Below, piece by piece: positions 8,496 to 24,536 of a stretch of 24,536 nt of DNA. The position numbers and the translations under genes were made by a program. The stretch comes from a virus. Location: IMG/VR virus record IMGVR_UViG_3300008517_000063, positions 1 to 24,536 of that record. One strand, written 5' to 3'. The notes beneath the pieces were generated by a model, which had not been told where the DNA came from, made no database searches, and was given only the letters and a program-made list of their open reading frames with translations. Position 1 is the stretch's first letter, and every line of letters starts with the position of its first letter.

Positions 8496-11117
8496 ATGAA
8501 ATACCTATCTCACCTACGTTTGCTAGAGTCCAAAGACCCCCAGGGCAAAGATTGGGACATCGTAGTCATTGAAGCAGGCCTGGGGAAAAATGATCATTTC
8601 TACTCTCCCCAAGTACTCGACAAAGCAACATCCCTTTATGAACATGTTCCCGTCTATCTTTTCAAACTCGGCGGCCTGGCCGACCACTTACCAGATGCTC
8701 TTACCGATCAAAAAAAGCGTCTTGTTGGCAACCAAGTTGGCTGGTTAGAGGACCCCCATTTCACTTCCTTCAAAGCCGACGGTAAATCAAAGCAGGGGAT
8801 CCTGGCCCGATTACACATTGACGATGGATTCAAGAACCTACGAGCCAAACTCCTAGATGCTTGGAATCATGGTCTTAAAACATTATACGGACTCTCTCAC
8901 GACGCCAGAGGCGATACCACCAAAGACGATACCACCGGCATTGAAACCGTAGATGAGATAAAGGAAGTTTCCTCTGTCGAACTCGTCACCTACCCAGCAC
9001 AGGGGGGGCAATTTATTCGACTGCTCGCCAGTCAAGGAGGCACTACAATGAAGTTCCCCAAATTAAGACAAGCTCTACTCGGGATCCTGACCAAACTCGA
9101 ACCTACATTAGTGGAGGGACTTGATGAGAGTAACATCACCAATGACCAATTCCTCGAAATGGTCGACGCGCTCCACGAGAAGGATGAGTTCTACACAGAG
9201 GCTCAAACTCTCGAAGCTAAAGGACCATTTATGCAGTCCGTTATCGCCAAACTTATCACCCTCCTAAAGGGGGATAAGAAAGAGCAGGCTCTCAAAGTCT
9301 TAACCCAGTTGCAGACCAAGCTCAAGGACTACACTTACCCCGCACCTGCCAAAGCCAAGGATTCCGACTCCGATAAGACCAAGGATTCCGGTGTTCTAAC
9401 CCTGGAAGATCTCTTCGGCGGAGCGGACGTTGATGAGTCGGCTTACACTGAGTGCATGAAGACGCAAATGAAAGCCGGTAAGTCCATGGCAGACGCAGCC
9501 AAGATCTGCAAGGTCAAGGCCAAGAAGCCGGAGCCTGCTGACAAGGACAAGGACAAGGACGACCAGGTTAAGGACGCCCTTGCTCGCGTAGCCAAAGTCG
9601 AGGAAAACATCAAAAAAACTGCATCCGCAACTATCCTCGATCAGGTCTTAAAGGCCTCGGATCTCTTCGAGCCTGTTAAGGAAAAAATCCGCAACCAATA
9701 TAAAGATCGCATCTTCGAGAAGAAAGACCTCGAAGAGTCCCTGAAGCAGGAGAAGGCTACCCTGGCCAAACTCACAGAATCCGGCAACCTCACAGGTCTT
9801 GGACAGTCCAGAGTCGAGGTCACTCTTGCTGAAAGTGACAAGCACCAAATCGCCATGGATCTCTTATTCGAGAACGAAGTTAAGGATCCGAAGGGAGTCA
9901 CAGCCTATAGGGGTATCAAGGAAGCCTATAAGAGTTATAATCCCCAGGACCCCGATGTAACCTTCCAGTCTCGCAGACCTAAACGTCTCTCCGAAGCTAC
10001 TATGGTAGTAGCGGACTTTGATAACGCACTCGGGACCTCCATGATGAAGAAGATGTTAAAGGTCTATAAGCTCATGGACCTTCCTTGGAAAGAGTTTGTT
10101 AATATCGTACCTGTAAGTGACTTCAAACAGCAGGAACGTATCCGCTGGGGAGGTTTCGGCGAGCTTCCAACTTACGACACTGAAGACGCGGAATATGCCG
10201 ACATCGCATTCCCTACGGACGAGAAGGCAACCTATACTCCCTTAACCAAGGGGGGCCTCTTCCCTATCTCTCGCAGATCCATCAAAAACGATGACATGAA
10301 CATGCTCAGACAGGTTCCTCGCAGACTTGCCAGAGCAGCCGCACGAACCCTCAACAGTTTTGTCTGGGCGTTTCTAATCAACAACTCCACTATCTATGAT
10401 AACGCAGCTCTCTTCACCGCCGCACGCGGCAACCTCGGTGCATCCGCCCTCGACTTCGATACTCTCTCCGTCGCTGTAACCGCACTCAAAGGAATGAGAG
10501 AAAAGGGTAACTATGCAGTGGAAGGAACGGTAACCGGAGTATCCGCCTCAACGTTGGAGACCGGCAAAACGTGGACGGCAAGCCAGTACGACGATTACTA
10601 CGTCAGAATCGTTTACGGAACCGGAGTAGGACAGTATAGGAAAATCGCCAGCCACACGACTGGCGGAGTAATTACGCTGGACGCTGATTGGACAACTAAT
10701 CCTGATACGAGTTCAAAGTACGAAATATTCCAACACCTAGATGAGAAGATCGGACTGAAACCTGCTCATATCGCAGTACCCTCAGAACTCGAACCAACCC
10801 TGGATGTTATTCTCCAATCCAAACTCGAACCCGGAACGGTTGAGAACAACATCAACGTAATGAAGAACGTCGCTAAGAAAATGGTTCCTCCTAATCTAGT
10901 TGACGTAAATGACTGGTATGTCATAGCCGATAAGACTTGGTTGGACCTGTTCGAGCTCGGCTTCATAGATGGCGCACAGAATCCAACTATTCTCATTCAG
11001 GATCAACCTAATGTTGGCACAATGTTTACCCGTGACAGAATCACTTACAAAATAAGGCACGAATATGGCGGAGCACCGGTTGACTATCGTGGCTTCTACA
11101 AAGCCGTAGTCAGCTAA
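8496..11117 (+). CDS. Prohead protease-scaffold-major capsid fusion protein
   Basis: 873 residues. Residues ~1-178 resemble a prohead serine protease: IVVIEAGLGKNDHFYSPQVL at the start, ILARLHIDD, TLYGLSHDARGD with Ser134 as candidate nucleophile (His125/His135 nearby), and EIKEVSSVELVTYPAQGG. Residues ~185-500 are Lys/Glu-rich and helical, including a Cys motif (AYTECMKTQMKAGKSMADA) and a coiled scaffold-like stretch. Residues ~500-873 are a Mu gpT-type HK97-fold capsid protein (MVVADFDNALGTSMMKK, WGGFGELPTYDTED, RAAARTLNSFVW, PTILIQDQPNVG). A ~67-residue beta-domain is inserted at ~677-743. Protease-capsid fusions of this type are known in phages; self-cleavage is presumed to release the capsid protein. 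The start follows AGAGG in the structured leader. Confidence 0.85.
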   Translation: MKYLSHLRLLESKDPQGKDWDIVVIEAGLGKNDHFYSPQVLDKATSLYEHVPVYLFKLGGLADHLPDALTDQKKRLVGNQVGWLEDPHFTSFKADGKSKQGILARLHIDDGFKNLRAKLLDAWNHGLKTLYGLSHDARGDTTKDDTTGIETVDEIKEVSSVELVTYPAQGGQFIRLLASQGGTTMKFPKLRQALLGILTKLEPTLVEGLDESNITNDQFLEMVDALHEKDEFYTEAQTLEAKGPFMQSVIAKLITLLKGDKKEQALKVLTQLQTKLKDYTYPAPAKAKDSDSDKTKDSGVLTLEDLFGGADVDESAYTECMKTQMKAGKSMADAAKICKVKAKKPEPADKDKDKDDQVKDALARVAKVEENIKKTASATILDQVLKASDLFEPVKEKIRNQYKDRIFEKKDLEESLKQEKATLAKLTESGNLTGLGQSRVEVTLAESDKHQIAMDLLFENEVKDPKGVTAYRGIKEAYKSYNPQDPDVTFQSRRPKRLSEATMVVADFDNALGTSMMKKMLKVYKLMDLPWKEFVNIVPVSDFKQQERIRWGGFGELPTYDTEDAEYADIAFPTDEKATYTPLTKGGLFPISRRSIKNDDMNMLRQVPRRLARAAARTLNSFVWAFLINNSTIYDNAALFTAARGNLGASALDFDTLSVAVTALKGMREKGNYAVEGTVTGVSASTLETGKTWTASQYDDYYVRIVYGTGVGQYRKIASHTTGGVITLDADWTTNPDTSSKYEIFQHLDEKIGLKPAHIAVPSELEPTLDVILQSKLEPGTVENNINVMKNVAKKMVPPNLVDVNDWYVIADKTWLDLFELGFIDGAQNPTILIQDQPNVGTMFTRDRITYKIRHEYGGAPVDYRGFYKAVVS
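9034..9050 (+). promoter_or_regulatory. Internal in-frame start with strong ribosome-binding site
   Basis: AAGGAGG (9034-9040) lies 7 nt before an in-frame ATG (9048-9050, Met185 of the fusion protein), precisely at the boundary between the protease domain and the scaffold. It would give a 689-residue scaffold-capsid product (MKFPKLRQALLGILTK...) without the protease, in the manner of nested scaffold genes such as lambda Nu3 within C. This could set the ratio of protease to capsid. It is stronger than the site at the annotated gene start. Confidence 0.55.
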
Positions 11118-14200: not shown

Positions 14201-14416
14201 ACCATTAAGGACGGAGTTATGATGAACGCTGCTGATACAATCACCAACGGCGTAAGAATGTGGGGAGATGTTACGAATGCCTTCGCTTTTGAGGCTGCTG
14301 ATACTGGCCCTGTAATAACTGGTTGCGATAATGTTGATGACCGTGAAGGTTCAATAAAGATTACAGTTGCTGGGGTTGCGAAATATCTACACTACTGGCC
14401 GAATGCAGCATCATAA
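11204..14416 (+). CDS. Large multidomain fibre/decoration-like virion protein
   Basis: 1070 residues, ATG after AAGGGAGAAAAACA. Residues ~1-290 are beta-rich. Residues ~299-416 carry repeats of the form N(T/V)AxGxxAL (NTGIGYQALYSL, NVAIGGLALY, NTAVGFNALK, NVAVGYNALG, NVAVGSRSGD, NIVIGYQAGD), the YadA-type left-handed beta-roll of trimeric adhesins and phage fibres. Two tandem copies of a ~180-residue module follow (~470-650 and ~653-830), each ending near QT(I/L)RC...GTYTTAYPI. The C terminus ends GSIKITVAGVAKYLHYW, a small strand motif often closing such proteins. Its place between the capsid gene and the head-tail connectors suggests a head-attached fibre rather than a tail spike. The second half is more AT-rich than the first. 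Trimerisation is inferred. Confidence 0.7.
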   Translation: MGASTFKRTHIVLGKDGAGQDFKAFGDTSGAYIRWDHANDKLIFAGGADMDMGSFGTPLTLNQSNNYLFGIFGDVSVANATGTNVERGIWSRVKVSAAQTGAFSIFGGQLQFRWADGCTTLGSGTENAQYAGAWLYLEQDTTGQALADYAHASGVVVQVETFGALTIPTNAHLSGVQIESRLGAANGAAISLNSGTIAGVFITKSPAAAGVTAADWPFGIFIEDCTVAMRVETSLPVQFRDANTYISSSAASVLDIVAATAIKIEGDLRTDRWQDEVKNTLIGVDVAGADGLSSGALHNTGIGYQALYSLTLGTHNVAIGGLALYTCATADKNTAVGFNALKTYNYDGAGWNVAVGYNALGLATGSAGDWGMGNVAVGSRSGDHITYGAYNIVIGYQAGDNITTADHCIIIGNQVDAPSATTDAQIKIGGSTAEQGYILGDGAGDMTINAIDAHDVHLAVADVDVVSVGSAVVAIVQPTTVTLAAGTGVHSAVTAVAAYTGWALGYWGQAIISNTEGNAANAAGGCFEINVTDTHTGGKSGIWAGIYVGCFASSATAGSIPTAGIYIENIAGAEIDMSDVPMISLVTSGGGGAGEQSAIAFEFGNAEAAKEVSIGAGGMWQEQTIRCVINGTAYFIPMSTGEGTYTTAYPIISSYSAGSAVAVTSTAPTTATNAISSAVNITDGWASGEINAIYGKVTITPAAGVTYSAAGGHFELEMVGNATSGHGLLCGAMVKFTSDLEQPNAILYLESYPTGSCDLSETPFITFCDYKSGSGVKSNTLFRIGDPMMAQAISTGSGKLSYNQTLRCALYDTPIYLVTSTEQGTYTTAYPIESSSRNAFSSAAIFVPSTSVGTDYVFAMGTYGTPLDVTYASGAGAQHFLPFQMNVTPIGADPESSSSTNLMTCVITHDTLAMPHGRLKCTDFYTNISKNVLDAYVYQGELNFSDSSAFNEAAALGLCVNASSGTVAGKLRGIIVQMQGASQPTDTMAIEIRNIGSGATIKDGVMMNAADTITNGVRMWGDVTNAFAFEAADTGPVITGCDNVDDREGSIKITVAGVAKYLHYWPNAAS
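13136..13156 (+). repeat. Internal repeat, copy 1 of the fibre module end
   Basis: 21 nt coding for (T)YTTAYPI, identical to 13679-13699 in the same frame. It marks the end of the first of two tandem protein modules; flanking codons differ, so the modules are diverged at DNA level except here. Confidence 0.7.
13679..13699 (+). repeat. Internal repeat, copy 2 of the fibre module end
   Basis: Second copy of the 21-nt stretch at 13136-13156, again encoding (T)YTTAYPI at the end of a ~180-residue module. Retention of exact identity here while flanking DNA diverges suggests recent recombination or gene conversion. Confidence 0.7.
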
Positions 14417-14435
14417 TCACTAAGAATTAAAGGCT

Positions 14436-14462
14436 AGGGGCTGGCCCCTTCCAAACAGCCCC
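14436..14462 (+). promoter_or_regulatory. Mutually exclusive hairpins after the fibre-like gene
   Basis: Two competing stems: AGGGGC (14436-14441) with GCCCCT (14444-14449), which leaves only a 2-nt loop so the inner pair must open, and GGGGCTG (14437-14443) with CAGCCCC (14456-14462) around a 12-nt loop. The second is a perfect 7-bp stem. There is no T-tract. It could be an mRNA end or processing structure; with the 11161 hairpin it brackets the large gene. Confidence 0.4.
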
Positions 14463-14487
14463 ACACTAACCTAATAGGAGGTTACCA

Positions 14488-14928
14488 GTGAAACTCACAA
14501 CCATCGAGCGCCTCACTCTGCTCAACATTTTCCCGGCAGAGGACAACATCGTGACCATGCGGACCACTCGCAGCACCAGGGAGAAACTCAGCTTCTCGGA
14601 CCAGGAACAGATCGACTTTGAGTTCGTCAATGTCTGGGAGTGCCCGGTCTGCAAGACCGAGGTTGATAAGCCGATTACCACTTTACTTCCTCCCCCCTGT
14701 CCCAACTGTGAGAAGAAATGTGAGAATTGCGGACACGTCATGGGGAAACCCACCCTCGTCAACACTGGCAAAATGAAATGGAAGACCAAGGATGTTAAGC
14801 CCAAAGATCTCAAATTCGGTGGCAAAGCTAAGGAGCTTATCCGCAGTGTTCTCACGAAACTCAGTACCGATAAGAAGATCACCGAAGCTCATATCAGCTT
14901 GTACGACAAGTTCATAGGGAAGGACTAA
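14488..14928 (+). CDS. Small phage protein with inserted zinc-ribbon
   Basis: 146 residues, GTG start after AGGAGGTTACCA. The frame (KLTTIERLTLLNIFPAEDNI, MRTTRSTREKLSFSDQEQID, then GKMKWKTKD, FGGKAKELIRSVLTKL, ITEAHISLYDKFIG) matches a small phage family I recall from virion regions, in which the two halves meet at a short turn. Here the turn is replaced by ~35 residues carrying WECPVCKTE, PPPCPNCEKKCENCGH (Cys at about 52, 55, 71, 74, 78 and 81), a multi-Cys zinc module. The next gene starts 1 nt after the stop. Function unknown; probably a small head-region or regulatory protein. Confidence 0.7.
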   Translation: MKLTTIERLTLLNIFPAEDNIVTMRTTRSTREKLSFSDQEQIDFEFVNVWECPVCKTEVDKPITTLLPPPCPNCEKKCENCGHVMGKPTLVNTGKMKWKTKDVKPKDLKFGGKAKELIRSVLTKLSTDKKITEAHISLYDKFIGKD

Positions 14929-14929
14929 C

Positions 14930-15241
14930 ATGGCTAAGAACTCCAAAGGCAAACTCACGGAAATCAAACTCGCAACGTACCGTACACTCGGGGGCTGGAA
15001 AGCCCTCGTTATCTGGTTGGCTGTCAATGATCCTAATAAGGGGGGGTATGCGATTCACCGACCAGGGGAGAAGGGAGAGAGCCCTCCAATTTATCACGCA
15101 GCGGATGGCACGGCTCACGCAGCATTTCAGCAATCTGCCTGCGCACCACCGCGTTACGGTCTAGCTCTCCCCGCTGATTTAGTCGAAATAGCTAAGGAGG
15201 AATCAAGTGGCAAAGAAAACAAAAATCAAGAAACAGAATAA
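14930..15241 (+). CDS. Late paralogue A2 of the 5667 small beta protein
   Basis: 103 residues. After a Lys-rich lead come LATYRTLGGWKALVIWLA, a divergent loop (NKGGYAIHRPGEKGE), IYHAADGTAHAAFQ and LALPADLVEIAKE, in the same order as in the early gene (YRTHGGWDARVIW, LDGTAHPV, HPADLIEEW). The tail (SSGKENKNQETE) overlaps the next gene by 35 nt. The family is uncharacterised; a small barrel is inferred. Confidence 0.7.
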   Translation: MAKNSKGKLTEIKLATYRTLGGWKALVIWLAVNDPNKGGYAIHRPGEKGESPPIYHAADGTAHAAFQQSACAPPRYGLALPADLVEIAKEESSGKENKNQETE

Positions 15242-15614
15242 GCCCACAGTTGGAGGACTCCAAAAGGGACCAGGCAAATGGATCCTGCTTTCCATACACG
15301 ATGCTGATAAAAAGATTGTCGGGCAACTGGATCTCGTTGGTAAGACTGTTTCCTTCCGGGGCCAGGCCGACAAAGCAGCTCGTGTTTTCTTCGATACTTC
15401 CAAGATTTTCATTGATGGTTATATCGCCGAACGTCTTACCGAGCATATCCCTGATGAGGAGGAGACCATAGGTTATGAGCTCGACTCCTCTGTCTTCACC
15501 AAAGTTATCAGACAACTGGGGCTCAAGCCCGATGATGTTCTTTCCCATACTGAATACCCTGACCGCATTGTCATCGTTACCAAGAACGGCAAGAAGTTCA
15601 AAGTTCCAATTTAA
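15207..15614 (+). CDS. Late paralogue B2 of the 7037 protein
   Basis: 135 residues from a GTG preceded by AAGGAGGAATCAA. KWILLSIHDADKKIVGQLDL, VGKTVSFRGQADKAARVFFD and IDGYIAERL align with the early gene (GSLEF, HFKGDVNKSAKLFFD, QYIQERL). The C-terminal part differs: instead of a coiled coil it carries VIRQLGLKPDDVLSHTEYPD and a strand pair (RIVIVTKNGKKFKVPI). Same neighbour as in the early region (paralogue A). Function unknown. Confidence 0.7.
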   Translation: MAKKTKIKKQNKPTVGGLQKGPGKWILLSIHDADKKIVGQLDLVGKTVSFRGQADKAARVFFDTSKIFIDGYIAERLTEHIPDEEETIGYELDSSVFTKVIRQLGLKPDDVLSHTEYPDRIVIVTKNGKKFKVPI

Positions 15615-15626
15615 GGAGTTTAATCT

Positions 15627-15977
15627 ATGTCACAACGACAATGCACTACACATAAGCTCTTGGCTTCGGCCGAGCGCGTTGCAGGCACTTACAATTCTGA
15701 TCCCTGGCTAAAGGTAGGCTCATTCATAGAGGGTCTCCTGATGGTTAGCGTTACCGCAGCGAGTACTGGAACACCCACTCTCACTATCACGGTGCAGGTT
15801 TCCCCCGATGAGGGGACAACCGCTGTTACCCACACCACCCTAAGTGCGATCTCGGCTGTGGGCACCGTTGTGTCCAAACTGACTCACCTGGGCGAATGGA
15901 TCCGAGTAAGCGCCGTAGTAGCTGGCACCAATACCCCCAAATTCACGTTCTCAATTCATCTCGCGGTGAAGAGCTAG
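15627..15977 (+). CDS. Small virion beta protein (decoration-like)
   Basis: 116 residues after AAGGAGTTTAATCT. A run of Ser/Thr/Val strands (LLMVSVTAASTGTPTLTITV, VSPDEG, VSKLTHLGEWIRVSAVVAG, KFTFSIHLAVKS). The 'lGewIRv...gt..ftfsi.' ending is typical of small head decoration or fibre proteins in phage structural operons. It lies just before the adaptor gene. No enzymatic motif; role in capsid decoration is inferred from position and composition. Confidence 0.65.
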   Translation: MSQRQCTTHKLLASAERVAGTYNSDPWLKVGSFIEGLLMVSVTAASTGTPTLTITVQVSPDEGTTAVTHTTLSAISAVGTVVSKLTHLGEWIRVSAVVAGTNTPKFTFSIHLAVKS

Positions 15978-15980
15978 GCC

Positions 15981-16670
15981 ATGTCAAAACTCTCGGATTA
16001 TAATTCCAGGGTCGATGCCTTAGTCCAGGATGATGCTGGTTTCATCGAATCGGCTGAGATCGACGAGGCCATCACCATGGCCGTCAAACGCTACTCGCTG
16101 CATCGCCCGCAGGAGAAAGCCCAGGAGTATGCAGGCGACGGCGGTTATGACTATGACCTTCCTAGCGATTGGGTCCAGGGATTCTCTCGCATTGTCTCCG
16201 TTGAGTACCCTTACGATGAACAGGATCCTAATTTTATTCCCAAAGAAGAGTGGACTATCTTCCTCAAACTCGTTGGGAGCACACAAACGCGTGTCCTTCG
16301 CTTCCTGACTACTTCACCCGCAGCAGCGGATTCCGTCCGCGTCGTCTACACCATCCCTCATCTCGTTGATGACTCATCCTCCACGGTCTATGCTAATGAT
16401 TTCGAGGCTCTTTCCTCCCTCGCCGCCTCATACGTTTGCGGGATGTTATCCAGGAAGTTCCTCCAGACCTCGGATTCCACTATCGGAGCCGATGCAGTCT
16501 CCTACGCAGCCAAGTCCTCCGCGGCTGCTTCCCGCGCCAAGGAACTCCACCACTCATACCTCGATCACCTGGGCCTCGCTGAGACTCCAGCCAGCGGGGG
16601 CATAAAAGAATTTGATACCGGCTTTGTCTGGGGCTCAGAGCATTTAACACACAAAAGTTGGCAGAGATAG
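15981..16670 (+). CDS. Head-tail adaptor protein
   Basis: 229 residues, MSKLSDYNSRVDALVQDDAG, then IDEAITMAVKRYSLHRPQEK, YDYDLPSDWVQGFSRIVSVE, and a helical half (LSSLAASYVCGMLSRKF, DAVSYAAKSSAAASRAKEL). The Asp-Asp-Xxx helix followed by 'AI..Av..YS..RP' and 'lP.dw......i..ve.P' is the plan of phage adaptor proteins of the HK97 gp6-like fold that sit under the portal. Start by position 3 nt after the previous stop; the ribosome-binding site is weak (GAGCTAGG). Confidence 0.75.
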   Translation: MSKLSDYNSRVDALVQDDAGFIESAEIDEAITMAVKRYSLHRPQEKAQEYAGDGGYDYDLPSDWVQGFSRIVSVEYPYDEQDPNFIPKEEWTIFLKLVGSTQTRVLRFLTTSPAAADSVRVVYTIPHLVDDSSSTVYANDFEALSSLAASYVCGMLSRKFLQTSDSTIGADAVSYAAKSSAAASRAKELHHSYLDHLGLAETPASGGIKEFDTGFVWGSEHLTHKSWQR

Positions 16671-16679
16671 GATTAAACA

Positions 16680-17294
16680 ATGGCATCAGATGACACAACC
16701 ATCAAACTCGAATTCAAGGGGAAACTCTTGACCGATACTCTCGGGACAACTCAGATTTTCCACGACGAGTATCTCAACGGCTTTGAAAATTCATTGAAAA
16801 CTCTGCGGGATTATATTCGTGCACGCTGTCCTATCGGAGTTTCCGGTCGTCTTCGCAGTTCCGTCAACTATCGTGCAGAGGAACTCACTCCTCGGGGTCG
16901 TTTCGGTTTCCCAACTGGTCCGCTCGAATTCGAGGGCGAGGTCTACGCCCGCTCCGAAGCGGAATACCATTTCGGCATCTTTCCTACCCCGTGGTCGGCC
17001 ATTTGTCCCTACTCCAGAGCGGTCGAAATTGGGACTCGCCCTCATTTTCCACCTATGATTCTACTTCGCGACTGGGCTTCCCGTGTTCTCTTTCTAGCTC
17101 GTCCAGCGGCCACCCTCGCAGCCTATTTCATCGGCCGTTCGATCTCCAAGCATGGCACCCGCGGTCGCTTTATGTTCCGAGATGGACTTACACAATTTGA
17201 ATCCGAGAAAGTTTTTGAAAATAATATGGAAAAAGCGGTAGCCATAGCTACCCAAAAAACCGCGGTAGAGACTCCGTGGTGGGCTGCCTTCTAA
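16680..17294 (+). CDS. HK97 gp10-like neck/tail completion protein
   Basis: 204 residues. Key signs are RARCPIGVSGRLRSSVNYRA (the 'P.gTG.LR.Si' motif), then EVYARSEAEYHF, and AVEIGTRPHFPPMILLRDWA (the 'VE.GT.PH.PP' motif), which in this order define the gp10/minor head family. C-terminal residues (LTQFESEKVFENNMEKAVAI) form helices that pack in the ring. Expected to form a ring between head and tail. Confidence 0.8.
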   Translation: MASDDTTIKLEFKGKLLTDTLGTTQIFHDEYLNGFENSLKTLRDYIRARCPIGVSGRLRSSVNYRAEELTPRGRFGFPTGPLEFEGEVYARSEAEYHFGIFPTPWSAICPYSRAVEIGTRPHFPPMILLRDWASRVLFLARPAATLAAYFIGRSISKHGTRGRFMFRDGLTQFESEKVFENNMEKAVAIATQKTAVETPWWAAF

Positions 17295-17386
17295 ATGTTA
17301 CTATCTCACGCACACACTTTACCACTGCCTTCACCCAACATCCAAATTTCGGCACTCTATGGCGTTATTTTCGGGGGAGATGCAGT

Positions 17387-17836
17387 ATGAGTTATTCTAC
17401 GATTTTAGCCCAGATCTTATCGACTCTCCAGGGCGTTACCGGCATCGGCACCAAAGTCTACGATTATGAGCGCTATGCCGCAACCTGGAAAGAGTATCTC
17501 GACCTCTTCAAAGCGAATGACCTTATCAAAGGTTGGACGATCACTCGTATTGCCACTCCCGAGGAAACAAAAAATGTCACTACCAATCTACGCACTCATG
17601 TTTTCGTCATTCGCGGTTTCTACTCTCTTGATGATTCCGCAGCTACGGAGAAAACGTTCCAGGTTCTTATCGAGAGCATCTGCACGGCTTTCAGAGAGGA
17701 CCCAACTCTCAGCGGCGTCGCCTTCGATTCCGGCCCCGTGCAAGTGGACACCGTTGGCCCAGTCATGTTCGGCCAGGTTCTTTGCCACCACTGTGAACTC
17801 AGATTACCAGCTCAGGAGGAAGAACAGTGGCGCTAG
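17387..17836 (+). CDS. Tail terminator-like protein
   Basis: 149 residues; the ATG is preceded by GGGGGAGATGCAG, and an in-frame ATG at 17276 would cross a 92-nt gap with no coding character. MSYSTILAQILSTLQGVTGI, KVYDYERYAATWKEYLDLF, WTITRIATPEET, HVFVIRGFYSLDD, TFQVLIESICTAFRED and FGQVLCHHCELRLPAQEEE follow the plan of phage tail-terminator/Gp37-type proteins that cap the tail tube. Position after the gp10-like gene agrees. Gap 17295-17386 holds nothing I can identify. Confidence 0.7.
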   Translation: MSYSTILAQILSTLQGVTGIGTKVYDYERYAATWKEYLDLFKANDLIKGWTITRIATPEETKNVTTNLRTHVFVIRGFYSLDDSAATEKTFQVLIESICTAFREDPTLSGVAFDSGPVQVDTVGPVMFGQVLCHHCELRLPAQEEEQWR

Positions 17837-17867
17837 TCATTCCTATTCTATCTACCGGAGGTTTCTG

Positions 17868-18086
17868 ATGAGTTCCAACTCTTTCAAGAATCCAGTGGTC
17901 GCGACTCTGTGTGTCGCTTTCGTCGCTTTCTGCATCGCCATCGGCAGCTACTCGACCTACGCTTACCGCACTTCGATGGAGAATCGCGAGCGCATCGCTG
18001 TTCTCGAATCCACACAGCGAATCATGCTACAGAAATTAAATGAGATCTCACTCGATGTTAAAACTCTTTTGTCCTCAAGGAGATAA
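17868..18086 (+). CDS. Small membrane protein with C-terminal coiled coil
   Basis: 72 residues, ATG after GGAGGTTTCTG; longer readings of this frame lie inside the previous gene. A hydrophobic segment (PVVATLCVAFVAFCIAIGSY, about 9-28) precedes a charged helix (ENRERIAVLESTQRIMLQKL) resembling the coiled coil of haemolysin/XhlA-type proteins, but with order reversed (membrane segment first). An unusual place between tail terminator and tail tube genes. Candidate holin-like or membrane-docking protein; uncertain. Confidence 0.6.
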   Translation: MSSNSFKNPVVATLCVAFVAFCIAIGSYSTYAYRTSMENRERIAVLESTQRIMLQKLNEISLDVKTLLSSRR

Positions 18087-18088
18087 TA

Positions 18089-19513
18089 ATGGCAGGCTCA
18101 GGTAAGCAATCTCATCTCGGCATAGCCAAAGAAGTCATCTGGGGCGAGGCTGTAGCTGCCACAGATCATCTCAAATACTCCTCAGAGAAACTTATTTTCG
18201 ACCCAGAGGAGTTAGTCGCCTCCTCCATACCATCTTTACGCGATGAGCCCGACAGCTACGAGGGCTTAAATAACATCGGTGGCCCATCGGTTCACGAAGT
18301 TCATCCCGATGGTCTCGGCTACATTCTCCGTTCCTGGTTCGGTAAATGCCTTACTACTAATCCTACCGGCACGGTCTTCAAGCATGTGTTTACCCCAGGT
18401 TTGGATAAGGAAGCATCCGGGACCGCGAATTCCGGCACCTCCACCACGTTAATAGACGCAGCTCTCGTCGCTACGGACGACATGTATAACGGCTGCTGGC
18501 TTCATATTATCTCCGGCACTAATTCAGGTGAGTGGCGCATTATTACCGATTCTGTGGCATCTTCCAACCAACTCACGGTAGCCCCCGCTTTTACCGCGGC
18601 TATCAACAATACTTCTGTTTTCGAGATTCGTAATGGTCCGAAGGATTGTATTCTACCACCTTACACCCTGGAAGCTCATCGAGATCTTGCTAAAGCCTTT
18701 CAATTCAAAGGCTGTGTACCCAATACGCTTTCCTTCGCCATCAGCACCGTGGCTAAGATCCTCATGCTCACCGCTGACTGGATCGCCAAGGACGTCGCGC
18801 TCGTCGATCCCACGTCTCCGGATCCTGAGGATACTGAACCATTTCGCTGGAACCAGGCAATACTACTCATCGGCCGTGATTATTCTAGCACCGTGGATAT
18901 AGATGGCAATACCAATACTACTACCAAGATTTATGACGTTGCTGCTTCCTACACCATTGACGCCCTCATCGGCAAATATATTCGCATGACCTCCGGGACC
19001 TGCATCGACCAAATCCGTAAGATTACGGATAACACGGCTACAACTATTACCTTCTCACCGGCTATGTCCGCAGCTCCCTCAAACGCCGATACGTATGAGG
19101 TTTGGACTGAGGACGGCACGATGGAGACACTCGCCCTCGCTATTTCCAATGGTCTCCTGGCTGTGCCGTTACTGAATAATTCTAAATGCATCGCTAAAAT
19201 AGTCGGCGATGTCTTCAGGCTCGGCACCATCGCAGCAACTTTCCACGTTGAGAATCGCACTAATTGGGAAACCTATTTCAAAGACTGGACGACACGCCCC
19301 TGGTTCCTACTCTTCCGGGGTGCTTCCCGTACCAGCACCGCATTCTATTACGAGTTACAGTTTCATCTACCGAAGGTGCTTTTTACCGCTTACCCCCTTG
19401 GCACCGATGGCCCCGGCCAACTCACAGTCGGAGCCACCGGGAAAGTTAAGTACGATTCAACTTCGGAGTATCTCGCTAAATGCGTGCTCTTTAACGCTAA
19501 ATCTAGTTATTAA
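18089..19513 (+). CDS. Tail tube protein with two inserted beta domains
   Basis: 474 residues from an ATG after AAGGAGATAATA. Starts SHLGIAKEVIWGEAVAATDH, the usual 'g...iG.E...Gt.v.p...l......' opening of major tail/tube proteins, then ILRSWFGKCLTTNPTG and a C-terminal tube core (ISNGLLAVPLLNNSKCIAKI, LLFRGASRTSTAFYYELQFH, YDSTSEYLAKCVLFN). Two beta domains are inserted at about 108-182 (WLHIISGTNSGEWRIITDS) and 270-342 (YIRMTSGTCIDQIRKITDN), both related to the domain in the capsid protein (YVRIVYGTGVGQYRKIASH). These probably project from the tube surface. Most single-domain tube proteins are shorter. The 72-nt gap after it shows nothing certain. Confidence 0.75.
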   Translation: MAGSGKQSHLGIAKEVIWGEAVAATDHLKYSSEKLIFDPEELVASSIPSLRDEPDSYEGLNNIGGPSVHEVHPDGLGYILRSWFGKCLTTNPTGTVFKHVFTPGLDKEASGTANSGTSTTLIDAALVATDDMYNGCWLHIISGTNSGEWRIITDSVASSNQLTVAPAFTAAINNTSVFEIRNGPKDCILPPYTLEAHRDLAKAFQFKGCVPNTLSFAISTVAKILMLTADWIAKDVALVDPTSPDPEDTEPFRWNQAILLIGRDYSSTVDIDGNTNTTTKIYDVAASYTIDALIGKYIRMTSGTCIDQIRKITDNTATTITFSPAMSAAPSNADTYEVWTEDGTMETLALAISNGLLAVPLLNNSKCIAKIVGDVFRLGTIAATFHVENRTNWETYFKDWTTRPWFLLFRGASRTSTAFYYELQFHLPKVLFTAYPLGTDGPGQLTVGATGKVKYDSTSEYLAKCVLFNAKSSY

Positions 19514-19585
19514 GCCGCGGGGAAGGATGGCGATTCACAAGAAGCCTCTCGCTAACAACCTTCTCCGCTTTATTATGAGGTTACT

Positions 19586-19981
19586 ATGTCTCTGATCTCG
19601 TTATCACTCATCCTGAAGGACATTATCTCCCGCATCGCCAACGCTGCTGCTTCGTTCTTCCAGAAGCTCTTTGACCTCGCTCTACTGTTTATTTCTCTTT
19701 ACCGGGGAATTGCTGCTCTTTTCCTTACCTCATCTCAGAAACTACGTTTCCTTATCACGAAGTACGCTTCCCAACAGGTCTCACGCTTTACCGAACACAC
19801 CACCATCGCTCAAGCAGCGCTCCCCGATCTCCTTTCGCCGGAGACAACTACGGATGTTATTCGTGATCTTACTAGCATTACATCGCAAGCCCAGGCTGCA
19901 CGCATCGGCGTTCTCGGTCTAGTCGCTCGCATCGCTAGAATGCGCAGCCGCACGATTATTAAATACATCTACGTTGATTAA
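19586..19981 (+). CDS. Short tape-measure-like or chaperone-position protein, 131 aa
   Basis: ATG after TGAGGTTACT. SLISLSLILKDIISRIANAA, a hydrophobic helix (LFDLALLFISLYRGIAALFL) and a C-terminal helix-plus-strand ending RTIIKYIYVD. The opening 'LxLxLKDxxS' and the closing '(S/K)(R/K)TI.....IYV' are shared with the next gene and are like the ends of phage tape-measure proteins. It lies where tail assembly chaperones are normally found. Alternatives: a diverged chaperone, or a second ruler subunit. Confidence 0.6.
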   Translation: MSLISLSLILKDIISRIANAAASFFQKLFDLALLFISLYRGIAALFLTSSQKLRFLITKYASQQVSRFTEHTTIAQAALPDLLSPETTTDVIRDLTSITSQAQAARIGVLGLVARIARMRSRTIIKYIYVD

Positions 19982-19992
19982 CGAGGTTTAAT

Positions 19993-20601
19993 GTGAAAAA
20001 ACTTGCCGTAACTATTATGCTCAAGGATCTTTTCTCCGCTGCACTCAAAACGGTAGCCACAGCGGTGGAGGTCTTTACCGGCAAATCCAAGAAACTTGAG
20101 TCGCAGATGAAGGCCGAGGTCTCAGCCATCAAGGAGCGCACTCGGCAGGTGGAGACAGCGCTACAGGAGCAAATGGACGCGGAGGATGCTGCGGTTCGCG
20201 CAGTCGGGAAAGCCGCTGAGGAGTACGAAGCAATCCTGGAAAAAGAGCGGTCAGCTCTCAGCGGCAAGGTCAAGGAATACGATTCGATTCGCAGCGCATC
20301 ATCTCAAGCAGCCAGCGCAGTTCGCAGCCTCAACTCAGCTATTGGTTCGCTCAAATCCAAGACCATCACTATCACTACCATTTATGTTTACAAGACGAGG
20401 GGCTCGAAGGGCTCGAATCCTTACGAGGGTTCATCCAAAGGCTCCAACCCATATTCTTCATCGGCTCCCACTACAGGTCCCGGGTTATCCTCAACCACTG
20501 ACGCCGCGGACGCCAAGGATATTGTCGAGAAAACAGTGCTTCCGGCACTTAAAACGCTGGCCAGGGAAGGTAAAGTCTCCGAGGAGGTAGTCTTACAATG
20601 A
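19993..20601 (+). CDS. Very short tape-measure-like protein, 202 aa
   Basis: GTG start (an overlapping ATG is followed at once by TGA) after CGAGGTTTAAT. LAVTIMLKDLFSAALKTVAT opens it like a tape measure; residues ~28-115 are coiled coil (SQMKAEVSAIKERTRQVETA, ASSQAASAVRSLNSAIGSL); LKSKTITITTIYVYKTRG is the beta motif common near the end of tape measures; then a Gly/Ser/Asn linker (GSNPYEGSSKGSNPYSSS) and a C-terminal helix. At about 0.15 nm per residue this would span roughly 30 nm, a very short tail, if it is the ruler. The stop overlaps the next start (ATGA). Confidence 0.6.
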   Translation: MKKLAVTIMLKDLFSAALKTVATAVEVFTGKSKKLESQMKAEVSAIKERTRQVETALQEQMDAEDAAVRAVGKAAEEYEAILEKERSALSGKVKEYDSIRSASSQAASAVRSLNSAIGSLKSKTITITTIYVYKTRGSKGSNPYEGSSKGSNPYSSSAPTTGPGLSSTTDAADAKDIVEKTVLPALKTLAREGKVSEEVVLQ

Positions 20602-20963
20602 GCGCAATCAGAGTCACAGACGGTACAACAACGATTGACTTCGATCCGGCTGAGGGGTACATCGAGCCTAAGATCCTGGACAAGACTCACCAGCGAGCTA
20701 TCGACGGGACTGGCTACGCTTACAAATGGTGGGCCAAAGAGCGTTGGGAGATGCCTCTGGACAGAATCGCCAAAAGCGATGCCGACCAATTCAATACCTG
20801 GTGGGAGGCCATTACTCCCCTAACCCTTACCCCCGATATGGTCAATGCCGCTACGACCACTTTCACCGTACTTTTAAGAAATGATACCGCACCCGTATCC
20901 GCGATGCAATCCAAGGTATTCGCTGTTCATTACGCGGGCGTACTAATTTTCGAGGAGTCATAA
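20598..20963 (+). CDS. Small tail protein, 121 aa
   Basis: ATGA overlap with the previous gene. MSAIRVTDGTTTIDFDPAEG, YKWWAKERWEMPLDRIAKSD, DQFNTWWEAITPLTLTPDM and VFAVHYAGVLIFEES: the order of a Trp-rich strand pair, 'l..i...d...l..Ww....pl..t.d' and a terminal 'y.G.l.l.e' is typical of small baseplate/distal-tail or tube-related proteins. Role in tail assembly inferred from position after the ruler-like genes. Confidence 0.65.
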   Translation: MSAIRVTDGTTTIDFDPAEGYIEPKILDKTHQRAIDGTGYAYKWWAKERWEMPLDRIAKSDADQFNTWWEAITPLTLTPDMVNAATTTFTVLLRNDTAPVSAMQSKVFAVHYAGVLIFEES

Positions 20964-20964
20964 A

Positions 20965-21399
20965 ATGGGATTCCCCACAGTAACAAATGATGACGGTACA
21001 GGTCTCACGGGGACCAGCTTTAGCGCAGCCTTCTTCACCCTGGTAGAAACGCATGGTCAAAAGGTGGCCAGGACAGCCACGGTGGTGGATTTGTCTGGCG
21101 CCGCGGCTACGCTCATCGCCCTGCATTGTGAGCGCGCCTGCACTCTGCTTAAAGCCACTCTGCTTTACACCGAGGCTTCCAGCGGTGATGCGGGAATAGC
21201 TGTCAAGATTGGGAAGGAAACTGACAACGATTATTTCTACACGGGAACGTCCGAGGTCAGCAAAGCGCAGTGGTATTCCAAGAACGTTACTCTCTTACAG
21301 ACCGCGGTTGGGGCCGGTGATACCGTAATCCTCTCCAGTGCGGGGAGTAAATCCGGCACCGGCGAAATAATGCTGATCCTCGAATATGATTACACATAG
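20965..21399 (+). CDS. Small tail-tip/fibre beta protein, 144 aa
   Basis: ATG after GAGGAGTCATAAA. After NDDGTGLTGTSFSAAFFTLV the rest is beta-rich: KVARTATVVDLSGAAATLIA, CERACTLLKATLLYTEASSG, NVTLLQTAVGAGDTVILSSA, ending EIMLILEYDYT. The layout resembles the small jelly-roll fibre subunits next to phage tail genes. No catalytic motif. Confidence 0.6.
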   Translation: MGFPTVTNDDGTGLTGTSFSAAFFTLVETHGQKVARTATVVDLSGAAATLIALHCERACTLLKATLLYTEASSGDAGIAVKIGKETDNDYFYTGTSEVSKAQWYSKNVTLLQTAVGAGDTVILSSAGSKSGTGEIMLILEYDYT

Positions 21400-21408
21400 A
21401 GAGATATC

Positions 21409-21912
21409 ATGACAGTAGCACCCGCGGAATTAAAGCTCTACGCAGCTCTCAAGATGCCGAGGAACGATTTTGGAATCAACGGCGGCGGCATAGATACCGA
21501 TGAGGAAATTACCGGGGTTGTCCTCGAAGTCTTTAAGGACCAGTATTCGCTAGTCGCTGGCAGCGGCGGTAGAATCGTCTACCGCAAAGTTTTCTTCAAG
21601 AGTACGAATAGCATCGACACCCTCAGCGACGCGGTGGTGTGGATGAGCGTGGATGATAATAACTGGATTACCCTCGATATGGACGATGCCGTTGACGGCT
21701 CCTCAACCTCAGTCAATAGAGTTACTGCACCATCCAGCCGCACCTTCGCCGAGCATAACACGGAGGCTACGGCTCATGCAATTCCCGGAGGCGCTTTAGC
21801 TCCAGGAGAAGCTATCGGCATCTGGCTGAAACTTACGATCCCAGAGGGGCAGAGCGCAGATTCCTCAATCAAGGCGACGTTGAAATGCTTAGGATCAGTA
21901 ATAAGTGTATGA
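21409..21912 (+). CDS. Virion beta-sandwich protein, 167 aa
   Basis: ATG 9 nt after the previous stop with AGAGAG upstream. ELKLYAALKMPRNDFGINGG, ITGVVLEVFKDQYSLV, VYRKVFFKSTNSID, WITLDMDDAVDG, AIPGGALAPGEAIGIWLKLT. The 'fKstnsidtls...vw....dNnwi.l' and 'L.pGeaigiWlkltIP' pattern is a recurrent phage virion beta-sandwich, of unknown role. The stop precedes the next start by 22 nt. Confidence 0.65.
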   Translation: MTVAPAELKLYAALKMPRNDFGINGGGIDTDEEITGVVLEVFKDQYSLVAGSGGRIVYRKVFFKSTNSIDTLSDAVVWMSVDDNNWITLDMDDAVDGSSTSVNRVTAPSSRTFAEHNTEATAHAIPGGALAPGEAIGIWLKLTIPEGQSADSSIKATLKCLGSVISV

Positions 21913-21934
21913 AAAAAATAACAAGGAGAGTCAA

Positions 21935-22465
21935 ATGATTAAGCTATTGAAACAGATCGACCGGTTTTTGGGAAAACTGATATTCGGGACATTGCGCAAG
22001 CGGACCAAGAATTCCTTTGATCTCAACGATACTCTGTGGGCGAAGCACTATGACAAGAACGGCAAGCTCATCGAGAAACGTTGTCTCGGCCACAATCTAG
22101 TCGTAGATGATGGGATGGAGCATATCGTTGATTCCTGGCAGGATTCCACGACTTACCCTCTGGATGAATGTAAATACCACGATACAGGGATTGGAACTAC
22201 CGGCGCGGCCGCTGACAACCCGGCGATGGAAACCGCTACTGGATTCACGCGAGCTACTGGGTCTCTCACCGAGGGAGATAACGCTAAGGAATTCAAGAGC
22301 GTCGGAACCGTATCCTGCACGGGAACCAAAGCTGTTACCGAATGGGGGCTTTTTAGTGCGTCAACAAACGGAGTCCTGATCGCACGGAATACTTTCTCGG
22401 CCATTAACGTAGTGAGCGGGGACAGTATAGAGTTCACCTGGGAATGTCAGTTAGCATCTAGTTAA
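21935..22465 (+). CDS. Tail fibre-like protein, 176 aa
   Basis: Start MIKLLKQIDRFLGKLIFGTL after AAGGAGAGTCAA; an in-frame ATG at 21905 lies in the end of the previous gene. An amphipathic N-terminal helix is followed by a fold often seen in phage structural operons: CLGHNLVVDDGMEHIVDSW, YHDTGIGTTGAAADNPAM, KEFKSVGTVSCTGTKAVTEW, GLFSASTNGVLIARNTFSAI, DSIEFTWECQLASS. The 'kYHdtGiGtt....' and 'itEwGLFsast.G.liar..Fsai.v' motifs are the signature. Confidence 0.75.
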   Translation: MIKLLKQIDRFLGKLIFGTLRKRTKNSFDLNDTLWAKHYDKNGKLIEKRCLGHNLVVDDGMEHIVDSWQDSTTYPLDECKYHDTGIGTTGAAADNPAMETATGFTRATGSLTEGDNAKEFKSVGTVSCTGTKAVTEWGLFSASTNGVLIARNTFSAINVVSGDSIEFTWECQLASS

Positions 22466-22478
22466 ATAGGAGGTTTAG

Positions 22479-22982
22479 ATGGCTTATCGAGAAGTAAATC
22501 TACCAGCGGGTAGCTGGAATTATCCTACAAGTAATCCTGCTCCTTTAGATAGAGATGTGGGAACTAACAGCGGAATGTTTATTCAAGTCTTTGATAAAAC
22601 GACGGAGGAATTTGTTCTACTGGAACCTGCATTTGAATTGCCTAATAATTTGGATGGGTCAGGGACGGTCTATTTCAGTTTGATTGGCTACGCAAAGACG
22701 GCTGATGGAAACGAAGTGCAATTCCGAATTTCTCATTCGGCTAAGGCTAAAGGAGAAGATTGGGATGCACCTTATGATACCCTAGATAGTGGGGATTATG
22801 TGACAGATGGACAGCAGGACGAGTTAGACCAGATTGAATTCAATGAAACTGTGAGCAATTTAGCTTGGACTGCTAAGGATTCGCTTAGACTGATGCTGAG
22901 TAGAATAGCGATAGATGATGGAAGTATTGTCAATGATGATTATTACATAACGAATCTGAAAATAAGAATACCTGTAACCTAA
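22479..22982 (+). CDS. Fibre-associated beta protein, 167 aa
   Basis: ATG after AGGAGGTTTAG. REVNLPAGSWNYPTSNPAPL, FIQVFDKTTEEFVLLEPAFE, GTVYFSLIGYAKTADGN, VQFRISHSAKAKGEDWDAPY, and LRLMLSRIAIDDGSIVNDDY. A jelly-roll-like virion protein as often found beside fibre genes. Codons here are AT-rich compared with the genes before it, suggesting separate origin. Role in receptor binding is inferred from position. Confidence 0.6.
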   Translation: MAYREVNLPAGSWNYPTSNPAPLDRDVGTNSGMFIQVFDKTTEEFVLLEPAFELPNNLDGSGTVYFSLIGYAKTADGNEVQFRISHSAKAKGEDWDAPYDTLDSGDYVTDGQQDELDQIEFNETVSNLAWTAKDSLRLMLSRIAIDDGSIVNDDYYITNLKIRIPVT

Positions 22983-22992
22983 AGGTGATTAG

Positions 22993-24536
22993 ATGGCATT
23001 AGAATTTGATGGGAATGACCAAAAAGTAACCAATCCTACCTTATTAAATGTTGTTCCTGCAGCAATCAGCATAAGTTGTTGGATTAAAACAGGAACTGAG
23101 AATGCTGGCATACTTATACACAAAGATAATATTACTGATGAAGATAGATTTTACCTTCAGGTAACTGGTGGAATTATAAACTTTAGAACGGAAGAAAATA
23201 ACAATGGTTTCAAACATTTATTCGGAGAAATAGCTATAGATGGTGATAAATGGCATAACATTATGGTAATTTGGGATGGTGGTAGTGGAAAAAGAATATT
23301 TGTTGATAGCGTTCTTGATGTAATAGATGGGGTAGAAACAACGCTGATGAGGAATGGGACGGCTTCAGATTTTAATATCGCTTGTAGTCCAGTTTTGGGG
23401 AACTACTACGATGGTCTCTTTAGTGATGTCCGTGTCTATAATCGTAATATTTCCCTGGCAGAAATAAAATCAATCTATTATGCCCAAGGTGCTGATAACA
23501 TCATAAACGGTCTTTTGGGTCGCTGGCTAATGAACGAAAAGCCAGATGGAACTGCTGCCGCAGGAGCTAATGTAGTAATTGACATATCGGGAAATGGGAA
23601 TCATGGAACGCCTGTCAATGCTCCAGTTTATCGGGCGGGGACTGTGCGGTTGATCCGTCCAACTCTTAAATCACCATTATTAAATTGGACTGTACCCAAA
23701 GCTCTAGCCGATCCTCTCGCTTTCACTGACACCATTGTCAAGAAACCATCCAGGCTATTAGCGGATACCCTCGCCTTTACGGACGCCATCGCTAAGTTCA
23801 CTTCAAAGATCCCATTCACGGACAACCTTGCTTTCACTGATGTTCTCTCCCACGTCGTGATTTGGGGCAAGGCATTAGCAGATTCCATAGGACTCACAGA
23901 TTCTTTCATCGCCAAGTGCAAAAAAGTCTTCGCAGATGACTTGACCTTCACGGATGCTATTGCCAAATTCACCACAAAGATCCCATTCACCGACTCTCTT
24001 GCTCTCACGGATGCTATCGCCAAGGAGACAAAGCGGTTGCTAACCGATGGCCTGGCCTTAACGGACTCACTCCTCGGCAAAATCTATAAAACTAGGGACA
24101 TCGTCTACGACATCGTGAGCCGCAGTTGGCTCTCAGCTCATAGCATTAAAGTCATCCTCAATCTCCTCCGCAAATTTGTCTATGACGCCACGCACGAAAC
24201 CTCAAAAATCCAGGCTCTTGGTTCGATCAGCAGAATGGCCTCCAAAATCGTTTCCGGGGGGACTCAGGTAACTCTGGTCAACACGGCACAGTATTGGAAT
24301 AAATTCCTGTCCGACAAGACTAACATTCGGCAGACGGCAACTCTCCAACTCGGAGTCGGAGTTGAGAATACCATCGCACGAGCTGGCGTTGCCCGAGCGG
24401 GAATCACCGTAGCCAATTTAACCACGCTCAAGACCGGCAGCGTGGTCTCCAGCGGGATTTTCGTTCCCGGTGCGGGTCAATGGTTTGATGTTCTAACCGG
24501 TTGGGGGGATGATCCGCTTTTCCAAGGCTCTTATAC
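22993..24536 (+). CDS. LamG-like fibre protein with heptad of repeats, partial at 3' end
   Basis: Open from ATG 22993 (AGGTGATT upstream) to the window edge, at least 514 residues, no stop. Residues ~1-220 have the laminin-G/concanavalin-like plan: MALEFDGNDQKVTNPTLLN, AAISISCWIKTGTEN, DGDKWHNIMVIWDGGSGK, GNYYDGLFSDVRVYNRNISL, LGRWLMNEKPDGTAAAGANV, DISGNGNHGTPVNAP. Seven 18-20-residue repeats follow (about 237-363, consensus aDxLxFTDxIxK), then a helical and beta stretch to the edge (TSKIQALGSISRMASKIVSG, VENTIARAGVARAG). It probably binds surface glycans, with the repeats as a spacer. Confidence 0.7.
   Translation, partial: MALEFDGNDQKVTNPTLLNVVPAAISISCWIKTGTENAGILIHKDNITDEDRFYLQVTGGIINFRTEENNNGFKHLFGEIAIDGDKWHNIMVIWDGGSGKRIFVDSVLDVIDGVETTLMRNGTASDFNIACSPVLGNYYDGLFSDVRVYNRNISLAEIKSIYYAQGADNIINGLLGRWLMNEKPDGTAAAGANVVIDISGNGNHGTPVNAPVYRAGTVRLIRPTLKSPLLNWTVPKALADPLAFTDTIVKKPSRLLADTLAFTDAIAKFTSKIPFTDNLAFTDVLSHVVIWGKALADSIGLTDSFIAKCKKVFADDLTFTDAIAKFTTKIPFTDSLALTDAIAKETKRLLTDGLALTDSLLGKIYKTRDIVYDIVSRSWLSAHSIKVILNLLRKFVYDATHETSKIQALGSISRMASKIVSGGTQVTLVNTAQYWNKFLSDKTNIRQTATLQLGVGVENTIARAGVARAGITVANLTTLKTGSVVSSGIFVPGAGQWFDVLTGWGDDPLFQGSY
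23700..24082 (+). repeat. Seven in-frame repeats of an 18-20-residue unit
   Basis: Units begin ALADPLAFTD, LLADTLAFTD, PFTDNLAFTD, ALADSIGLTD, VFADDLTFTD, PFTDSLALTD and LLTDGLALTD. Units 2-3 and 5-6 share an AAAGATCCCATTCAC stretch (around 23804 and 23977), so a two-unit block appears to have been duplicated. Adjacent minus-strand frames are long only because of this repeat. Confidence 0.75.

Follow-up and report, generated by a model that had tools for sequence, protein, structure and literature searches.

A very probable miniature tape measure protein, and its possible hydrophobic partner, encoded behind the tail tube gene of a phage

Two short ORFs lie directly behind the tail tube gene of a phage, and the second of them, ORF2, very probably encodes a tape measure protein (TMP) of miniature size. 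The explanation that we consider probable as a whole is that ORF2 serves as tape measure in a phage whose non-contractile tail is unusually short, and that its hydrophobic neighbor ORF1 has a role beside it, which we assign tentatively. The window analyzed here, meaning the whole stretch of DNA, is part of a virus record and comprises 24,536 bases (Table 1). Profile comparisons were done with HMMER and hhalign.

Table 1. Positions in the window of the ORF pair and of the structural genes around it
Feature	Coordinates	Strand	Length	Evidence and remarks
Head maturation protease/major capsid fusion	8496..11117	+	873 aa	PF25209, E 1e-33; PHROG 133, E 5.8e-49; anchors the structural module
Tail tube protein	18089..19513	+	474 aa	PF18906 (Phage_tube_2), E 2.4e-11, 44.2 bits versus a cut-off of 27; PHROG 290 (minor tail), E 1.3e-13
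ORF1, tentatively a hydrophobic TMP-like protein	19586..19981	+	131 aa	ATG start; possible membrane-active partner of ORF2
ORF2, very probably a miniature TMP	19993..20601	+	202 aa	GTG start
KSKTITITTIYV motif	20353..20388	+		Inside ORF2, residues 121-132
Candidate distal tail protein (by position)	20598..20963	+	121 aa	Overlaps the ORF2 stop
5' part of tail/hub-like LamG protein	22993..24536	+	1068 aa when complete	PF13385, E 3.1e-17; complete in the sister contig (L002 10499-13705)

Both ORFs are real, intact genes. A GAGG element (Shine-Dalgarno, SD) is found 5-7 bases upstream of the start in each, and their codon usage resembles that of the other genes in the claimed frame only (0.069 for ORF1 and 0.120 for ORF2, with the five other frames at or below -0.074). 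The initial annotation had their coordinates and lengths right. Its description of two proteins that open with LxxxLKDxxS and end with TI...IYV fits ORF1 (LSLILKDIIS and RTIIKYIYVD), but holds for ORF2 only in part: the opening VTIMLKDLFS has V instead of the first L, and TITITTIYV is not terminal, as KSKTITITTIYV is followed by 70 more residues.

The pair follows immediately upon the gene with the PF18906 match and precedes a region presumed, by its position, to encode the tail tip. The PF18906 match itself is stretched, with residues 5-270 of the protein aligned to positions 1-173 of the profile; together with the 316-aa length of the tube-position protein in Microcystis phage Mae-JY22, this suggests an inserted domain in the 474-aa tail tube protein. 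For the 121-aa ORF behind ORF2, we found no Pfam or PHROG match, and its AlphaFold model is unusable (pLDDT 36). A 'hub' role for the 1068-aa LamG protein is suggested by position and size; several degenerate repeats of the form ALADxLAFTDxIAK can be seen by eye in this protein, at 23680-24080 of the window. At the head end of the module, protease and major capsid protein are encoded as a single ORF. Between the capsid and neck genes, a 1070-aa ORF (11204-14416) looks like a tail-spike or virion structural region (PHROG 6002 and 4636, E ~1e-11), an odd location for a spike.

The coiled coil and LKSKTITITTIYV of ORF2 have their match near the C-terminus of long TMPs, which span 647-1943 aa. Using hmmscan against the PHROGs, without the motif as a filter, we aligned ORF2 residues 44-132 to positions 1483-1583 of the 1761 columns of PHROG 37622 (E 6.5e-4); two PHROG families named tape measure also matched, with E 0.11 each. 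One member of PHROG 37622 (1298 bits) is a long TMP of 1376 aa (L092), which also matches a family named tail length tape measure protein (E 2.1e-36). A first scan of viral contigs yielded six loci that were confirmed by tblastn. One of these is the sister contig described below, and all five others are ORFs of 1030-1943 aa, one of them open at the 5' end, with a C-terminal coil and motif that match ORF2.

A pattern scan for KSKTITIT-like codons returned 93 stretches, 17 of which lie inside ORFs of at least 500 aa. The chance background of the pattern is seen in the other 76 matches, in frames below 500 aa, most of which are plainly non-genes. [LIP]KSKTITIT, a condition chosen after inspection of the ORFs, is present in 11 of the 17 long ORFs, always 118-230 residues from the ORF end, and five of these 11 belong to contigs already found in the tblastn-confirmed scan; the remaining six long ORFs have KTK, KRK or VKSK instead. 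The only short ORF with the [LIP]KSKTITIT context among the 93 stretches is the copy of ORF2 in the sister contig (L112). Because the motif served as the search pattern, the constancy of KSKTITIT in these relatives is partly built in. When eight of the 11 long proteins were scanned against the PHROGs, five matched TMP families at E <1e-5, and three (L059, L031 and L086) had no TMP family match at that threshold. A 10-row profile of long-TMP C-terminal stretches matched the motif and preceding coil of ORF2 with E 1.2e-10 and a probability of 97% (hhalign). The association of the motif with TMP ends, made in the initial annotation, is borne out by this profile match, by PHROG 37622 and by the 11 long ORFs. 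One feature of TMPs, a hydrophobic membrane-spanning stretch, is missing from ORF2 (19-residue hydropathy maximum of 1.39, versus 1.85 in ORF1), although such a stretch may not be universal among TMPs.

A single-sequence AlphaFold model of ORF2 consists of a confident helix (residues 2-120), a low-confidence linker and a second helix (residues 171-191). The pLDDT of the long helix is 81-96 per 10-residue block over residues 1-110 and 78 over 111-120, in agreement with the coiled coil first noticed in the sequence. AlphaFold continues this helix through the motif, to residue 135, at low confidence, and no strand is predicted. Comparison of the model with the PDB by Foldseek gave no significant match; the best was the P22 tail needle, the protein to which g11 of the Rhodobacter capsulatus gene transfer agent (RcGTA) was likened, and at E 3.2 we discarded it.

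The available portion of a study of phiCbK gives a 295 nm tail for 1,964 aa, or 0.15 nm per residue (PMC3556154). By this value, the ~118 helical residues of ORF2 correspond to ~18 nm, all 202 residues to 30 nm, and ORF1 and ORF2 end to end to 50 nm. The tail near 30 nm that had been predicted is thus the upper end for ORF2 alone, and needs correction to ~18 nm because only ~120 of the 202 residues would form the ruler helix. We propose that this N-terminal helix, probably as a trimer, sits in the lumen of the tail tube, and that the protein would be anchored in the tail tip, the starting site of assembly, by its KSKTITITTIYV segment together with the C-terminal helix. Tube rings would then be added along the helix over its full length, ~18 nm or 4-5 rings, whereupon the terminator would cap the tube. 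The lack of a match to a sheath protein suggests that the tail has no sheath.

The evidence on ORF1 is of a different kind. Its first 35 and last 40 residues, compared in order with the corresponding parts of ORF2, give a score of 80. Of 4000 shuffles in which local composition was preserved, one reached this score, the regions having been picked after the first reading had named them; the best of the 26 other ORFs in the window scores 49 in this comparison of ends with ORF2. Plain BLASTP between the two proteins gives E 0.31, and the general TMP C-terminal profile matches ORF1 weakly, in the same register (E 0.014, probability 3%; hhalign). The ORF1 protein is hydrophobic and has a basic composition (15 K+R, 8 D+E), with a hydrophobic stretch at residues 28-47 and a strand motif at its end. 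Given that it shares both ends with ORF2 and has the hydrophobic segment that ORF2 lacks, a division into ruler and membrane functions is plausible, if unproven, and comparison with the TMPs of TP901-1 and the R4C roseophage (below) suggests, short of demonstrating it, that ORF1 supplies the hydrophobic part.

ORF1, translated just ahead of ORF2, would most likely have arisen as a tandem copy of the TMP that has diverged and in which only the head, the hydrophobic segment and the strand motif are left. It may provide the kind of membrane-inserting stretch found in the middle of long TMPs and missing from ORF2. Taken to its full extent, a tandem-duplicated TMP would be divided by function, with ORF2 as ruler helix and tail-tip anchor, and ORF1 as a hydrophobic segment that occupies the same tube and opens the host membrane; we offer this complete version tentatively, as possible rather than probable. 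Of the two outcomes originally envisaged, an unusually short tail or a two-part ruler, the first would follow from ORF2 as a miniature TMP, itself well supported, and the second is possible, and depends on the weak similarity between ORF1 and ORF2.

A tail assembly chaperone (TAC) gene is usually situated between the tube and TMP genes, where ORF1 lies, and ORF1 could be an ordinary TAC in front of a miniature TMP, its likeness to ORF2 being due to chance or convergence. The weak similarity by BLASTP would be expected on this alternative, and in Mae-JY22 the tube-position and TMP genes are likewise separated by two small ORFs (162 and 80 aa). Programmed frameshifting into an overlapping ORF is usual for TACs, though not universal. 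ORF1 does not overlap ORF2, and stops ending at 19962 and 19977 interrupt the ORF2 frame, which leaves no room for the usual type of frameshift extension. Chaperone assignments, named at the outset as evidence that would count against tape measures here, are absent: no TAC family is among the Pfam or PHROG matches of either ORF (up to E 1 for ORF1). Chaperones of the lambda gpG/gpGT type share the gene location of ORF1, but ORF1 differs from them in its lack of a frameshift arrangement or family match, and in being hydrophobic and basic with a strand motif at the end. We regard a chaperone role for ORF1 as unlikely, while giving it serious weight.

For the region downstream of the window, we used a sister contig from metagenome 3300028837 (25,799 bases), which matches window positions 13106-24536 at 99.93%. 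All eight mismatches are in 13111-13183, and the two records are identical over 13184-24536. The sister contig extends 13,757 bases past position 24536, and this extension encodes the rest of the 1068-aa LamG protein, a 342-aa protein and an M15-type endolysin (PF13539); encoded on the opposite strand are a portal, a terminase and a 1515-aa protein that contains an ATP-dependent DNA ligase domain (PF01068). A list of every frame of 250 residues or more in the window and extension (38 kb) contains no further candidate TMP; the downstream check proposed in the initial annotation thus found no full-length tape measure in the 13,757 added bases.

Several features of the two records deserve mention in their own right. 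The ligase domain (E 1.6e-17) occupies residues 696-887 of the 1515-aa ORF (L014 4739-9286), which adjoins the portal gene and has no other Pfam or PHROG match. Comparison of window positions 12495-13183 with L002 1-689 shows no alignment upstream of ~13106, inside the 1070-aa ORF, for which a strain difference, recombination or an assembly joint are candidate explanations. The genome is incomplete, since neither the left end of the window nor the right end of the sister contig is closed. At the latter (L010 8440-8799) lies a degenerate repeat array, GTTAAGACGTTA..., with periods of 16-106, which is perhaps the reason that assembly stopped there.

TMP genes often carry repeats and may collapse in assembly, and in an incomplete genome the pair could be what decay or such a collapse has left of a long TMP, with the true ruler elsewhere or lost in assembly. 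We consider this improbable, as the two records agree base for base from 13184 on (though their reads may be shared), the window has no tandem repeats, and each ORF has its own SD, start, stop and in-frame codon usage, whereas a collapse would be expected to leave one fused or broken frame. That both ORFs are chaperones and the TMP lies elsewhere would fit their location behind the tube gene, but is very improbable given the TMP C-terminal sequence in ORF2 and the lack of another candidate TMP in 38 kb.

No independent relative carrying the ORF1-ORF2 pair was found among viral contigs and phage records. Searches by tblastn with the tube protein, ORF2 and the 1068-aa protein gave no match in 50,697 phage records; ORF1 and the tube protein retrieved only the sister contig from viral contigs, and the terminase found no relative in genome contigs. 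Apart from the sister contig, the 1068-aa protein was matched in its LamG part only. Relatives of the major capsid protein and terminase are present in a second metagenome, with 61% and 63% identity, on short contigs of 8,634 and 4,475 bases (L012 and L015). PDB sequence searches gave chance matches only. The accessible portions of the literature on tape measures that are short, split or double contain no description of a two-gene miniature TMP. In those portions, mentions of 'two tape measure' for Streptomyces phage Shady and phiCbK concern chaperones, and those in papers on SuMu and on TMP evolution are unrelated.

TMPs measure the tail and also participate in DNA entry, and with both roles in one very long protein it is difficult to separate them. 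To our knowledge, length control and DNA delivery are done by one protein in the known long-tailed phages. If ORF2 is indeed the ruler and ORF1 its membrane-active partner, the divided TMP would separate length control from DNA delivery, and a 202-residue ruler with a separate hydrophobic companion would constitute a small natural system in which each can be removed alone.

Mae-JY22 is the nearest named phage, by a capsid protein match of 31% that covers 77% of the query and, weakly, by the neck protein (E 2e-3). It encodes a 631-aa protein annotated as tail tape measure-like, preceded by the two small ORFs behind the tube-position gene. By eye, the ends of ORF2 resemble this protein ('VPALNDAL', 'VLPALKTL'), a likeness that we set aside as unconvincing: the N-terminal score was reached by 138 of 5000 shuffles, which is marginal, and the C-terminal score by 610 of 5000, which is not above chance. 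ORF1 has no match to the 631-aa protein above chance (2052 of 5000 shuffles).

Long siphophage TMPs (PHROG 37622, 1533, 167, 58 and 1535) resemble ORF2 in having a coiled coil and then [LI]KSKTITIT near the C-terminus. They differ in having a long middle region, which ORF2 lacks, and in the distance from motif to end, which is 82 residues in ORF2. According to the available part of a study of lactococcal phage TP901-1, infectivity needs the first hydrophobic region of its TMP along with 154 aa at the N-terminus and 60 aa at the C-terminus (PMC5099701). These minimal parts, as described there, are approximately what ORF2 and ORF1 jointly offer, in one protein in TP901-1 and in two here if our reading is right. 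The TMP of the R4C roseophage has two predicted transmembrane segments in the middle, as stated in the accessible part of its description (PMC10276861).

A known counterpart of similar size is g11 of RcGTA (Rcc01694), which fills the tail tube and, in the portion of the structural report available, is a trimer composed of a long helix (113 residues), a part with strands and loops (83 residues) and a short helix (20 residues); the tube has five discs with a pitch of 38.3 A, and the whole tail measures 49 nm (PMC7296036). As far as that portion describes it, g11 shares with ORF2 a length of ~200 residues, a long N-terminal helix, a middle part and a short C-terminal helix, a likeness drawn from the described layout and the predicted model of ORF2. 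In place of the 83 residues of strands and loops reported there, ORF2 has ~50 residues of motif and linker with no strand predicted. It also differs from g11 in its KSKTITIT motif and in the hydrophobic look-alike that precedes it. A short TMP as such is therefore already known from RcGTA, and a tandem hydrophobic partner would possibly be new; as a ruler, ORF2 would show that tape measures of RcGTA size are not confined to gene transfer agents.
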